64,000 nt of DNA, taken from positions 2,418,001 to 2,482,000 of the forward strand of contig NZ_CP113067.1 in NCBI RefSeq assembly GCF_026625865.1, in the 5' to 3' direction. Both the position numbers and the translations under genes were made by a program. How positions within the stretch are numbered: the first letter of the stretch is position 1; each line of letters begins with the position of its first letter. The notes beneath the pieces are model-generated. The model did no database searches, was not told where the DNA came from, and saw only the letters and a list, made by a program, of their open reading frames with translations. Shown here piece after piece: positions 1,068 to 27,138 of the stretch. The DNA comes from Microbacterium sp. SL75 (GTDB lineage Bacteria > Actinomycetota > Actinomycetes > Actinomycetales > Microbacteriaceae).

Positions 1068-3577
1068 TGCGCGTCCCGCTCTCCTGGTTGCGCGAGTACG
1101 TCGACGTGCCCGCCGAGGCCACGCCCGACGACGTCCTCGCGGCTCTGGTGTCGGTCGGCTTCGAAGAAGAGGACGTGCACCGCTTCGAACTGTCCGGCCC
1201 GATCGTGGTCGGAGAGGTGAAGGAATTCACTCCCGAGCCGCAGTCCAACGGCAAGACCATCCGCTGGTGCCAGGTCGACGTCGGCGCCGAGCACGGGGGA
1301 GTGCGCGGCATCGTCTGCGGTGCGGGCAACTTCTTCGAGGGCGACAAGGTCGTGGTGACCCTGCCCGGCTCGGTTCTGCCCGGTCCCTTCCCGATCGCCG
1401 CCCGCAAGACCTACGGCCACGTGTCCGACGGCATGATCGCCTCGGCGAAAGAGCTGGGGCTCGGCAGCGAGCACGGCGGCATCCTGCGCCTGGTCGATCT
1501 CGGGATCGATGCGCCGGTCGGAACGGATGCCATCGCGCTCCTCGGTCTCGACGATCTCGCGGTCGAGATCAACGTCACCCCCGACCGCGGCTACGCCCTG
1601 TCGCTGCGCGGTGTCGCCCGCGAGTACTCGCACGCGACCGGGGCGGACTTCCGCGATCCGGGCCTCGGGCACGATGAGGCTGCAGCGCGCACGCCCTCCG
1701 GTTTCCCGGTCACGGTCGCCGATCAGGCACCCATTCGCGGACGCCACGGCGCGACCGAGTTCGTGGCGCGGATCGTGCGAGACGTCGACCCCTCGCGTCC
1801 GACGCCGCCGTGGATGATCACGCGCCTGTCGCTCGCCGGAATCCGCTCCCTCGGGGTGCTCATCGACATCACGAACTACGTCATGCTCGAGCTCGGCCAG
1901 CCGATCCACGGCTACGACCTCGACCGTCTGCGGGGCGGCATCACGGTGCGCCGCGCGGAGCAGGGCGAGAAGCTCGAGACCCTCGACGGCCAGGTTCGTT
2001 CGCTCCACGCCGAAGACCTGCTGATCACCGATGAGTCGGGGCCGATCGGTCTCGCCGGCGTCATGGGCGGCGGGCTCACCGAGATGAGCGACGCCACGCG
2101 CAACGTGCTCATCGAGGCCGCCACCTTCGACCAGGTATCGATCGCCCGCACCGCGCGTCGACACAAGCTGCCCTCCGAGGCCTCGCGCCGTTTCGAGCGC
2201 GGCGTCGACCCGCTCGTCCCGTACGTGGCGGCGGAGCGCGTCGCCACGCTGATGGTCGAGCTGGCCGGCGGCACGCTCGACACCGAGCTGGGCGCCTCGC
2301 TCGGTTCGACCTACCGTCGCGAGGCCATCACGCTTCCGTCGGGCTTCGTGCCCGGTCTGATCGGCGTCGAGTACACCGACGACGAGATCGTCTCGGCCCT
2401 GCGCCTCATCGGCTGCACGGTCGACGAGCGCGACGGCGGCTGGTCCGTGACCGCACCGTCCTGGCGTCACGACCTCGGCGACAAGTGGACGTTGGCCGAA
2501 GAGGTCGCGCGCATCGAGGGTTACGACCGCATCCCGTCCGTGCTCCCGACGCCCCCGTCGGGTCGCGGCCTCACCTCCGCTCAGCAGGGGCGCCGTCGCG
2601 TGGCGAACGCTCTGGCCTCGGCCGGCTTCGTCGAGACGCCGTCGTTCCCGTTCACCACCGAAGAGCAGAACGCCCTGCACGGCTCGCCGTCAGGCGACCG
2701 GCTGCCGAGCGTGAAGCTCGCGAACCCGCTCGACGGCCTGGCGCCGTTCCTGCGCCGCTCCCTCGTCCCGGCTCTGCTGCAGGTCGCGCACCGCAACGTC
2801 TCACGCGGCATCGTGGATCTCGCGCTGTTCGAGACCGGCACGGTGTTCCTGCCGAAGCCCGGCGTGCAGTACGGCACCCCGTCGGTGCCGCCGCTGGCCG
2901 TGCGACCGGACGCCGCGACGCTCACGGCCCTCGACGCATCGATTCCGCCGCAGCGTCGCCATATCGCCGTGCTGCTGACGGGACACACCGTGGCCAAGCA
3001 GCCCGGCCAGGCCGCGGTGGCAGCGGACCTCGCCGCCGCCGTCGACGCCGTGCGCGTACTCACCGCCGCCGCGGGTCTCGACATCGAGCTGGTGCAGGCG
3101 CAGCGTGCAGCCCTGCACCCGGGTCGCACGGCTCGCGTGCTCGCCGCGGGGACCGACATCGGCTACGTCGGCGAGCTGCTGCCCGCGGTCGCTGCCGCCG
3201 CCGACCTGCCCGGTCGCGTTCTCGTGGCCGAGCTCGACCTCGACGCGATGCTCGAGCTCGCTCACGCGCGCGTGGTCGCGGCATCCCTCTCGAGCTTCCC
3301 GGCCGCGACTCAGGACGTGTCGTTGACCATTTCGACCGACGTCGCCGCCGGCGCGGTGCGTGCCGCGCTTCTCGAGGGCGGGGCTCCGCTTCTCGAAGGC
3401 GCTCGGCTCGTCGACGACTACCGCGGCCCGGGTCTGGCCGAGGGAACGAAGAGCCTGACCTTCGCCCTGCGCTTCCGGGCCGAGGACCGCACGCTCACCG
3501 CAGCCGAGGCGACCGAGGCGAAGCTCGCCGGTGTCGCCGTGGCCGCCGAGCGTTTCGGCGCCGCGATTCGCGACTGA
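1067..3577 (+). CDS. pheT: phenylalanyl-tRNA synthetase beta subunit
   Basis: Beta subunit of PheRS, 836 aa, normal for the family. It starts MRVPLSWLREYVDV, the typical PheT N terminus. Residues about 40-150 are the OB-fold tRNA-binding domain, the middle carries the B3/B4 editing and B5 domains, and the C-terminal 95 residues (FPAATQDVSLTI onward) are the FDX-ACB anticodon-binding domain. The ATG at 1067 overlaps the pheS stop by one base. An open frame continues upstream but only shadows pheS. Confidence 0.97.
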   Translation: MRVPLSWLREYVDVPAEATPDDVLAALVSVGFEEEDVHRFELSGPIVVGEVKEFTPEPQSNGKTIRWCQVDVGAEHGGVRGIVCGAGNFFEGDKVVVTLPGSVLPGPFPIAARKTYGHVSDGMIASAKELGLGSEHGGILRLVDLGIDAPVGTDAIALLGLDDLAVEINVTPDRGYALSLRGVAREYSHATGADFRDPGLGHDEAAARTPSGFPVTVADQAPIRGRHGATEFVARIVRDVDPSRPTPPWMITRLSLAGIRSLGVLIDITNYVMLELGQPIHGYDLDRLRGGITVRRAEQGEKLETLDGQVRSLHAEDLLITDESGPIGLAGVMGGGLTEMSDATRNVLIEAATFDQVSIARTARRHKLPSEASRRFERGVDPLVPYVAAERVATLMVELAGGTLDTELGASLGSTYRREAITLPSGFVPGLIGVEYTDDEIVSALRLIGCTVDERDGGWSVTAPSWRHDLGDKWTLAEEVARIEGYDRIPSVLPTPPSGRGLTSAQQGRRRVANALASAGFVETPSFPFTTEEQNALHGSPSGDRLPSVKLANPLDGLAPFLRRSLVPALLQVAHRNVSRGIVDLALFETGTVFLPKPGVQYGTPSVPPLAVRPDAATLTALDASIPPQRRHIAVLLTGHTVAKQPGQAAVAADLAAAVDAVRVLTAAAGLDIELVQAQRAALHPGRTARVLAAGTDIGYVGELLPAVAAAADLPGRVLVAELDLDAMLELAHARVVAASLSSFPAATQDVSLTISTDVAAGAVRAALLEGGAPLLEGARLVDDYRGPGLAEGTKSLTFALRFRAEDRTLTAAEATEAKLAGVAVAAERFGAAIRD

Positions 3578-3705: not shown

Positions 3706-3804
3706 CCTGCCCTCACCGCCGGTAAGGGGGGCTGCCGGAAGCGCCCGGCGATGAGGGCAGGTACTTCATCATACCGGTTGTTTGTCCCCCATTTGGGGGA
3801 CAAA
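3706..3804. other. structured intergenic region with three hairpins
   Basis: Between pheT and the arg leader lie three inverted repeats in series. CCTGCCCTCA (3706-3715) pairs exactly with TGAGGGCAGG (3752-3761). GGTA/TACC forms a small stem at 3761-3776. TTTGTCCCCC (3781-3790) pairs exactly with GGGGGACAAA (3795-3804) across a 4-base loop. The last could act as a terminator for pheST, although it lies 200 bases after the stop and has no T tract. A small RNA is also possible. The rest of 3578-3900 shows no gene. Confidence 0.5.
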
Positions 3805-3865
3805 GGGGGGCGGGCATCTCAGTTCGTGCTCGCATCGATCGTCACCGGCCGGCGGGAGGCTCGAT

Positions 3866-3895
3866 TTGCCCCCATCCCTGCGCTGCGGATACCCT
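3866..3895 (+). promoter_or_regulatory. promoter of the arginine leader ORF
   Basis: A TTGCCC -35-like box (3866-3871) and a TACCCT -10 box (3890-3895) are 18 bases apart. The ATG of the leader peptide is 6 bases after the -10 box, so this transcript should start leaderless at the leader ORF. Confidence 0.5.
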
Positions 3896-3901
3896 CGCCA
3901 C

Positions 3902-3997
3902 ATGTCGTCGATCACCGTGCGCACCGAGGAGCTCTTCGTGAGCACCGGTGGCGAGCGTCGACGTCGGGTCGCGCGCCGATTCTCGGCGACCTCGTAA
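3902..3997 (+). CDS. arginine-rich leader peptide upstream of argC
   Basis: A 31-codon ORF ending in TAA 82 bases before argC. Residues 18-27 are ERRRRVARRF, with six arginine codons in eight consecutive positions (CGT CGA CGT CGG GTC GCG CGC CGA). That is the classic layout of an amino-acid leader peptide sensing charged tRNA-Arg, here in front of the arginine biosynthesis genes. Its ATG sits 6 bases after a -10 box and no ribosome-binding site is seen, so it is probably translated leaderless. The arginine run overlaps a hairpin (3967-3991). Inference: cis-acting attenuation leader, not an independent protein. I do not know of a described homologue. Confidence 0.7.
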   Translation: MSSITVRTEELFVSTGGERRRRVARRFSATS

Positions 3998-4034
3998 CCC
4001 GCCTTCGGTCGGGCGTACGGGCGTCGCCGCCCCG
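3967..4034 (+). promoter_or_regulatory. candidate arg attenuator hairpins
   Basis: Hairpin 1 (3967-3991) has GCCGA and TCGGC around a 3-base loop, extended by GGTC/GACC, and overlaps the arginine codon run. Hairpin 2 (4006-4034) pairs CGG...GGCG with CGCC...CCG around a 9-base loop with a 3x3 internal loop. CGACC (3987-3991) can instead pair with GGTCG (4007-4011), linking the two as alternatives. This fits ribosome-mediated attenuation, but no T tract follows hairpin 2, so termination might be Rho-dependent. Confidence 0.45.
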
Positions 4035-4068
4035 GTTCACGCTGATTTCAGCACCAGCCCCGACTCGT

Positions 4069-4075
4069 AAGGTGG
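4069..4075 (+). promoter_or_regulatory. argC ribosome-binding site
   Basis: AAGGTGG, 4 bases before the argC ATG, is a good Shine-Dalgarno sequence, so argC is read from a leadered mRNA. The same bases also make a TAAGGT -10-like box (4068-4073), so an extra leaderless argC promoter cannot be excluded. Confidence 0.55.
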
Positions 4076-4079
4076 ATAC

Positions 4080-5129
4080 ATGACCCTCTCGGTCGCCGTC
4101 TCCGGCGCTTCCGGCTATGCGGGCGGCGAGATCCTCCGCCTCCTGGCCTCTCATCCCGACGTCGAGATCCGCACCGTCACCGCGCACTCCAGCGCGGGGC
4201 AGCCCCTCGTCGCCCACCAGCCGCACCTGCGTTCCCTCGCGCACCTCGAGCTGAAACCGACGACTCCCGAGGTGCTCGCCGGGCACGACGTGGTGTTCCT
4301 CGCCCTGCCGCACGGGCAGTCCGCGCAGTACACCGACGCCCTGGCCGAGACCCCGCTCGTGATCGATGCGGGTGCCGACCACCGCCTCACCTCGGCGGAG
4401 GACTGGGCGGCGTTCTACGGCGGGGCTCACCCCGACCCGTGGGCCTACGGCGTCCCCGAACTGCCCGTCGCGGGGGGAAAGCAGCGCGAGAACCTCCGCG
4501 GGGCCGCGCGTATCGCCGCTCCCGGCTGCAACGCCTCCACCGTCGCTCTCTCCCTCGCTCCCGGTGTCGCCGCCGGAGTCATCGATCCTTTCGACATCGT
4601 GTCGGTGCTCGCCGTGGGTCCCAGTGGTGCCGGGAAGTCGGCCAAGACGAACCTCCTCGCGAGTGAGATCCTCGGCTCCGCCAACCCATATGCCGTTGGC
4701 GGTACGCACCGTCACATTCCCGAGATCCGCCAGGCGCTGGTGGCAGCCGGAGCGCCGAGCGACGGCGTACGGCTCTCTTTCACTCCCGTTCTGGTTCCGA
4801 TGTCGCGCGGCATCCTCGCCACCTCGTCCGCTCCGATCCGGGAGGGAGTGACGGATGCCGAGATCCGCGGTGCCTGGGAGACGGCTTACGCCGACGAGCC
4901 CTTCGTCGAGCTGCTTCCCCAGGGCGTCTTCCCGCGGACGGCCGACGTGCTCGGCGCCAATATCGCATCGATGGGAATCGCGATCGATCGCGCGGCGAAC
5001 CGGGTGACGGTCGTCGCGGCGGTCGACAATCTCGTCAAGGGCACCGCCGGCGCTGCCATCCAGTCCATGAACCTGGCGCTGGGTCTCGCCGAGACCACCG
5101 CCCTTCCCCTGAACGGAGTCGCCCCGTGA
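4080..5129 (+). CDS. argC: N-acetyl-gamma-glutamyl-phosphate reductase
   Basis: NADPH-dependent third step of arginine biosynthesis, reducing N-acetylglutamyl phosphate to the semialdehyde. It is 349 aa. The Rossmann motif GASGYAGGE is at residues 9-17 and the catalytic cysteine is C150 in APGCNAST. It is the first gene of argCJBDF; its stop overlaps the argJ GTG start by 4 bases. Expression is probably controlled by the leader ORF upstream. Confidence 0.97.

Positions 5130-27064: not shown

Positions 27065-27138
<74 letters not shown>

Follow-up and report, generated by a model that had tools for sequence, protein, structure and literature searches.

The DNA analyzed here (the window) was a stretch of 64,000 nucleotides, positions 2418001-2482000 of a one-contig, 3.44-Mb genome. 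A short leader ORF (ATG at 3902, TAA at 3995-3997, translation MSSITVRTEELFVSTGGERRRRVARRFSATS) was located between pheT, which ends at 3577, and argC, whose ATG (4080) follows the leader stop codon at a distance of 82 nt. The leader peptide features the Arg run RRRRVARR (six Arg in eight residues), and its start codon is separated from a TACCCT box by a 6-nt gap. This layout had been described in an earlier, sequence-only reading of the window, and its coordinates proved to be right. The features of the locus are collected in Table 1. In addition to the genes listed there, argH was found downstream of argC, beyond argF; the spacing suggests that argC-argJ-argB-argD-argF constitute one operon.

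Table 1. Features of the leader-argC locus (window coordinates).
Feature	Position	Strand	Basis
-35 region GATTTGC of the leader promoter	3863..3869	+	0.8-1.5 bits per position in 83 aligned leaders
-10 box TACCCT (TAnnnT)	3890..3895	+	6-nt gap to start codon in relatives
Putative leaderless leader ORF, 31 codons	3902..3997	+	sequence, relatives and comparison with shuffles
First Arg run, codons 19-22 (CGT CGA CGT CGG)	3956..3967	+	sequence; relatives keep Arg here with free third positions
Element E1, Arg codons 25-26 (CGC CGA), 5' arm of small hairpin	3974..3979	+	codon pair constant in picked relatives
Element E2, GGCGAC, pairs with E1 (small hairpin) or E3	3985..3990	+	fold energy, covariation tests
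CCGCCTT, predicted anti-SD in this species	3999..4005	+	predicted pairing with 4069-4075
Element E3, GTCGCC, partner of E2 in relatives	4023..4028	+	fold energy, covariation of E2:E3
C-rich stretch between E3 and the argC RBS	4029..4066	+	base composition of relatives
argC SD AAGG in TAAGGTGGA, within near-invariant TAAGGTNGA	4068..4076	+	AAGG at the searched place in 81/83 leaders
argC, then argJ, argB, argD, argF	4080..5129 (argC)	+	TIGR01850 above cut-off; other four likewise above cut-off

A Microbacteriaceae metagenome bin encodes an ArgC identical to the one in the window; the identity of the window protein was 95% to the ArgC of an uncultured Microbacterium and 94% to those of two Microbacterium testaceum strains. 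Both strands of the window were scanned for ORFs of 8-45 residues that start 5-8 nt after TAnnnT and contain at least four equal residues in eight; the leader ORF was the sole match. No Arg leader was present in the ca. 400 nt upstream of argG or argS of the same genome. A TAnnnT box precedes the candidate starts of these two genes (L191 and L192, respectively) by 7 and 9 nt, and thus both may be leaderless too. The only match in an Rfam search of the window was a tRNA at 27065; at the locus itself, one match far below the gathering score was returned (sR53, minus strand, 4133-4156), and no T-box or riboswitch family was represented. Two inverted repeats were noted upstream of the leader promoter. 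One is a perfect palindrome, TTTGTCCCCC-ATTT-GGGGGACAAA, at 3781-3804, which occurs once in the window; nine of 80 loci, all of them in the L001-L014 range, have a GTCCCC..GGGGAC palindrome ca. 295 nt upstream of argC. The other, CCTGCCCTCA ... TGAGGGCAGG at 3706-3761, comes after pheT and is perhaps the terminator of that gene.

For comparison, 150 argC upstream regions from Microbacteriaceae were assembled: 80 were fetched by ArgC, most of them named Microbacterium, and 70 were further family regions. Two of the 150 (L001 and L081) share an identical ArgC and possibly represent one genome; both were counted. Forty regions from outside the family were a hand-picked spread of 139 genomes and covered 18 of the 19 other families of the order. 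A leader was scored when an ORF started 5-8 nt after TAnnnT and had at least three Arg in eight residues. By this definition, the layout was found upstream of argC in 127 of the 150 family regions (80/80 of the ArgC-fetched loci and 47/70 of the further regions) and in 0/40 of the regions from the 18 other families. At least four Arg were present in 119 of the 150 and at least five in 104. Among 1500 Markov-shuffled family upstream regions, at least three Arg were encountered in 26, four in 7, five in 1, and six in 0. The leader ORF is not a chance ORF. The sequence-only reading had suggested that other Microbacteriaceae be searched for the ORF and its Arg run, and both were recovered in the 127 regions.

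A covariance model, R1, was built from 56 leaders, and the training sequences match it by construction. Of 149 genomes sampled across the order, 10 belong to the family, and R1 matched 8 of these at E<=1e-4. The 139 from outside the family gave no match at that level, the best value there being 4e-4. Seven of the eight matches lay just upstream of argC. The eighth was at a contig end, and in that genome argC starts at the end of another contig. When 120 family genomes were searched, 47 had one match at E<=1e-4 and none had two; the match was just upstream of argC in 35/35 of those for which the argC coordinate was known.

The start region of the leader was examined in 129 leaders, of which one (L114) was later judged to be a false match and removed. 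The gap from the -10 box to the start codon was 6 nt in 116 of the 129 and 7 nt in 10, and the start codon was ATG in 120 and GTG in 9. Leaders more than 92% alike were thinned to 88, and five more (L073, L099, L120, L127 and L129) that had no clear E2 or E3 were left out, so the structure and codon counts on the remaining 83 describe only leaders with both motifs. In the alignment of these 83, a conserved, GATTTGC-like -35 region sits 27 to 21 nt upstream of the -10 box. The transcription start is predicted to be the A of the leader ATG, at 3902, and the mRNA is read as leaderless because of the spacing between the -10 box and the start codon. To judge by sequence, the leader thus has the arrangement of the polycysteine-type leaderless uORFs, i.e. 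TAnnnT 6-7 nt before the start and no 5' leader.

Twenty-three of the 150 family regions were scored as having no leader. Two of these are misses of other kinds: the L083 region is truncated where its contig ends, and the leader present in L129 has a gap of 9 nt. Of 20 other leader-free regions, 10 have argC 6-7 nt behind TAnnnT, as do 3 more when the start is taken to be a GTG three bases upstream. In the 450 nt upstream of argC, L121, L141, L146, L147 and L150 are leader-free and have argC directly behind TAnnnT with a 6-nt gap; with this spacing, argC itself looks leaderless in such members. These regions bear on the proposal that argC is driven mainly by a leaderless promoter of its own (TAAGGT, 6-7 nt before the ATG) and that the leader transcript is a side product. 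TAnnnT is also found 5-8 nt before argC in 76 of the 83 leader-bearing regions, and boxes resembling TGTATAGT precede many argC starts in the regions from outside the family. The proposal is nonetheless improbable: AAGG is kept in 81/83 as compared to 76/83 for TAnnnT, as expected if the SD is the kept feature; no conserved -35 region is seen upstream of TAAGGT, whereas the leader promoter has one; and the conserved Arg run is left unexplained. When 81 of the 83 sequences were aligned on AAGG, the frequencies in TAAGGTNGA were T.96, AAGG 1.00, T.98, G.95 and A.95. The flanking T..T and the GA are unexplained by SD pairing, and TAAGGTNGA could double as a -10 box.

On a single-gene ArgC tree of 69 chosen rows, leaders occurred on both sides of the deepest split in the family. 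The leader label needed 10 changes on this tree, at least five of them forced by well-supported branches. Most simply, this distribution would reflect an ancestral leader with several losses, although there may instead have been several gains.

The sequence-only reading had noted that argR is missing from its usual place in the cluster. The absence extends further: no match to ArgR (PF01316) was found anywhere in the genome containing the window, and the same search was positive in 9 of 14 control genomes. Only the PF01316 domain was used in the ArgR searches. None of 298 family genomes gave a match (completeness was 90% or more and contamination 5% or less in 267 of them), as compared to 138 of the 139 order genomes outside the family, the single miss being a 0.8-Mb genome. 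Control by ArgR and an ARG box is thus not indicated by the domain content of this genome. The earlier suggestion that a leader-based control would be useful where argR is missing is borne out to this extent, since no ArgR was found across the family. Short motifs near argC had a parallel distribution. TGCAT or ATGCA was seen no farther than 50 nt from argC in 28 of the 40 regions from outside the family and in 4 of the 150 inside; for TGTATA near argC, the counts were 19/40 and 0/150. These motifs may be ArgR operators placed on a leaderless argC promoter. In the last 30 nt before argC of the regions from outside the family (L151-L190), many starts resemble TGTATAGTTATGCAC-ATG, a leaderless promoter with TGCAT/ATGCA overlaid; the overlaid motif is possibly an ArgR operator.

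Codon use in the Arg run was tabulated for 49 Microbacterium leaders, chosen because they end in RR, one further residue and TAG; the window leader is not among them. Positions -9, -8 and -7 encode Arg in 40, 42 and 46 of the 49, respectively. At these positions, the third base varies by 1.3-1.5 bits and the first and second bases by 0.3-0.9 bits. This pattern supports the view that the Arg run is read as codons and is kept at the codon level across the family; conserved Arg codons in relatives had been among the checks proposed in the sequence-only reading. The final Arg pair was CGC CGA in 49/49, and codon and hairpin arm coincide there; because the leaders had been selected for a terminal RR, only the codon choice at this pair, not Arg itself, is informative. 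The distance from the first Arg of the cluster to E2 was 29 nt in 43 of the 83 leaders, 32 nt in 14, and 26 nt in 8. The ribosome footprint extends ca. 12-15 nt ahead of the A site, and a ribosome held in the second half of the Arg run would cover E1 but not E2, which would stay free.

Arginine codons could slow a ribosome in ways other than through the charging of tRNA-Arg. According to one such proposal, the element causes constitutive pausing at polybasic or CGA-rich codons and senses no arginine. CGA serves as the final Arg codon in 72 of the 83 leaders, compared to 33 of 254 Arg codons in seven genes of the window, as this proposal would have it, but that codon doubles as a hairpin arm. 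Strong R1 matches occurred only before argC where this could be checked, and an Arg leader is lacking before argG and argS of the same genome, both of which argue against a general pausing element; we consider it very improbable. The absence of lysine from the Arg run was dropped as an argument, because the leader peptides as a whole have no lysine and the absence is uninformative on constitutive pausing. In a second proposal, the nascent peptide itself is the sensor, not tRNA charging, as is the case for SpeFL and the fungal arginine attenuator peptide. The C-terminal residues of the leader peptides are conserved and arginine-rich, as peptide-based arrest would suggest. Yet the sequence changes from one genus to the next in the N-terminal half, the part that would line the exit tunnel, and the C-terminal endings differ (RRL, ERR and SATP types); this explanation is highly improbable as well. 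We regard sensing by the Arg codons as very likely.

The sequence-only reading had placed a hairpin over the Arg run and, following it, a second one with a competing pairing. The first was confirmed: it covers the last two Arg codons, as CGCCGA (3974-3979)-UUC-UCGGCG (3983-3988). For the competing pairing of CGACC (3987-3991) with GGTCG (4007-4011), only the complementarity held. It had a probability of 0.00 in every ribosome state that allows it, and was rejected as a switch; the partner of the CGACC arm that is kept in relatives is GTCGCC, i.e. E3. A conserved GC hairpin, GGCGAC:GUCGCC (E2:E3), starts at the leader stop. Compared to dinucleotide shuffles, the E2..E3 segment had a mean z of -3.62 and a z below -1 in 98% of the 83 leaders, values that are flattered by the placement of both ends on complementary motifs. 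Mean z values were -1.92 from E2 to the SD, -0.67 from after E2 to the SD, and -0.08 at the argC start. In L086, a unit around TCGACAAGCTCAGGGACCCATA is repeated about three times in the E2-E3 loop, and E2 and E3 are intact.

Covariation was examined in a 56-row alignment (A1) drawn from the 83 leaders, comprising every second Microbacterium row and the rows with an E2-E3 distance of up to 62. For a 10-pair E2:E3 helix, 85.5% of the cells were paired, as compared to 82.7% in shuffles (0/500 as high), 24 cells were changed on both sides vs. 14.4 (0/500), and the covariation score was 0.136 vs. 0.108 (2/500). The numbers of covarying pairs and of pair types in this helix were not above shuffles (273 and 268 of 500 as high, respectively). 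Four of the ten pairs never vary, and one fails in 27 of 55 rows. Sliding the helix by -3 resulted in 64.5% paired cells and a covariation score of 0.145, and sliding it by +3 gave 67.0% paired. A separate pair count, not independent of the helix test, returned 0.855 paired against a best value of 0.851 in 500 shuffles. Unguided RNAalifold on the same 56 rows found only the four invariant pairs, with a covariation term of 0. The E1:E2 pairing never covaries; only one of its six pairs holds in every row, and one is broken in 46/56. Thus, of the compensatory stem changes that the earlier reading had proposed to seek, modest ones were found in E2:E3, and E1:E2 was uninformative. The E2:E3 hairpin is backed by energy and, modestly, by covariation. 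A comparison of own with swapped duplex energies was set aside. It gave z values of about -7 for E2:E3, -2.5 for E3 with the pre-SD stretch, and -5.3 for E3 with the SD region, but an unrelated pairing of the ORF end with the SD region also gave -6.6, indicating that relatedness and base composition confound this comparison.

The locus has the basic composition of an attenuator, a short leader ORF that precedes an operon and is rich in codons for its end product, and E2 could pair with either E1 or E3, pairings that would exclude each other according to where the ribosome stands; support was moderate for E2:E3, E1:E2 was uninformative, and the ribosome-state folds were mixed. No U-tract intrinsic terminator of the kind found in classical attenuators was seen ahead of the first structural gene. 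Between E3 and the SD, five T in eight occurred anywhere in only 4 of the 83 leaders, and a terminator scan found no terminator-like site at the leader-argC locus. In the first 20 kb, the scan returned 4 sites, compared to 3.7 in shuffles; such sites being no commoner than in shuffles, this genome may rarely use them. The idea, from the sequence-only reading, that transcription is let through to argC is therefore unsupported in its classical sense, there being no U-tract terminator. In the 83 leaders, C makes up 46% and G 24% of the bases from E3 to the SD, as compared to 33% and 34.5% in argC +1..+60. Rho sites are described as being of such a C-rich, G-poor type in a study of Salmonella (PMC6386406). 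The stretch at 4029-4066 could be a loading site for Rho.

A different off-step is offered by translational attenuation, in which the leader sets the masking of the argC RBS and transcription is not terminated. In the window, CCGCCUU paired with the SD (4069-4075) at a probability of 0.93 or more in every folded ribosome state in which both were free. The SD was held by CCGCCUU except when the ribosome stood on the leader stop; E2:E3 was at 0.06 or less in these folds because an SD-sequestering fold wins. The SD of the window is consequently freed by a ribosome at the stop codon, not by a stalled one, which is opposite to the proposed direction if translation is gated. Across the 83 species, masking of E1 lowered the cost of RBS opening by more than 1 kcal/mol relative to the released state in 36 and raised it in 10. 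Compared to a ribosome at the stop (edge +12), opening with E1 masked was easier in 36/83 and harder in 12. This latter split was 25/1 in 48 other Microbacterium leaders, 11/8 in other genera, and 0/3 in the window's own group of five. The mean SD-unpaired probability was 0.45-0.47 in all four ribosome states. Folding thus weakly backs masking of the RBS, and translational attenuation appears rather unlikely.

We favor a ribosome-mediated attenuator on a leaderless mRNA that senses tRNA-Arg, with a probability of roughly three in four. Transcription would start at the leader ATG, and the ribosome would load on the 5' end. With ample Arg-tRNA, it would pass the Arg cluster, reach the stop codon, and cover E2, such that E2:E3 could not form and the C-rich stretch before argC would be open. 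Expression of argC would then be cut, most likely by Rho acting on that open stretch, or by masking of the argC RBS; we give even odds to Rho as the off-step and lower odds to masking. When Arg-tRNA is short, the ribosome would halt on the Arg codons, covering E1 and leaving E2 free to pair with E3; the off-path would be blocked, and the arg genes would be made. That E2:E3 is the on-structure is fairly probable, an estimate reduced on account of how the ends of this helix were selected. We infer translation of the leader ORF, stalling, the direction of control, and the off-step. The leader thus probably lets the ribosome sense arginine shortage and turn on the arg genes. The attenuator proposed in the sequence-only reading therefore stands in its leaderless layout, codon-level Arg run, alternative pairings, and lack of ArgR; the competing pairing that was named, and the passage of transcription to argC in the classical sense, are unsupported.

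On the best reading of these sequences, the attenuator took over from ArgR. It is somewhat probable that, at the root of the Microbacteriaceae, ArgR and the argC operator were lost and replaced by a leaderless Arg-codon attenuator without an intrinsic terminator, the first for a bacterial arginine biosynthetic operon in the literature searched, and that this was later lost several times in favor of a plain leaderless argC. A whole family seems to have exchanged protein control of arginine synthesis for ribosome-based sensing of arginine, which would illustrate a substitute for an amino-acid repressor that is among the most widespread. If this is true, leaderless leader ORFs are a wider actinobacterial route to attenuators, beyond cysteine, and the switch provides a clear setting for asking how attenuation operates when few U-tract terminators are available. 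The switch is also relevant to arginine production in these genera, where removal of ArgR is no option.

In the open-licence literature that was searched, no arginine leader at argC was described. Leifsonia xyli is a member of the Microbacteriaceae, and Tropheryma whipplei is placed near that family by some. Both are in the genome list of Seliverstov et al. 2005 (PMC1262725), who searched Actinobacteria and report that conserved RNA structures were not seen upstream of arginine operons. Two Arg-codon leaders are known from elsewhere, and neither controls an arginine biosynthetic operon. Salmonella orf34/speF (PMC6386406) likewise has consecutive Arg codons in a leader ORF and involves Rho and RBS masking; that ORF, however, is SD-led, has a conserved domain, and controls ornithine decarboxylase, and the Arg-dependent step is mRNA decay by RNase G. 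In S. aureus rbfL/rbf (PMC13009471), a leader ORF also senses arginine via Arg codons, but these are the rare codons AGA/AGG, and the system represses at low arginine by covering of the rbf RBS. Classical attenuators, including those of trp in Corynebacterium and Streptomyces as presented in PMC1262725, share a leader ORF with regulatory codons and alternative end pairings; the argC leader differs from them in being leaderless and in having no U-tract terminator.

Leaderless polycysteine short ORFs in mycobacteria were reportedly described by Canestrari et al. in 2020. Such cysteine ORFs (Shell et al. 2015, PMC4633059) are nearest in kind to the Arg leader. Like it, they are actinobacterial and leaderless, and a run of the regulated residue near the C-terminus precedes genes of that amino acid's metabolism; Seliverstov et al. 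(PMC1262725) likewise found no conserved terminator hairpin for the mycobacterial cysteine leaders. The argC leader differs from them in its use of arginine, its occurrence in another family, its GC hairpin at the stop codon, and its link to the absence of ArgR.
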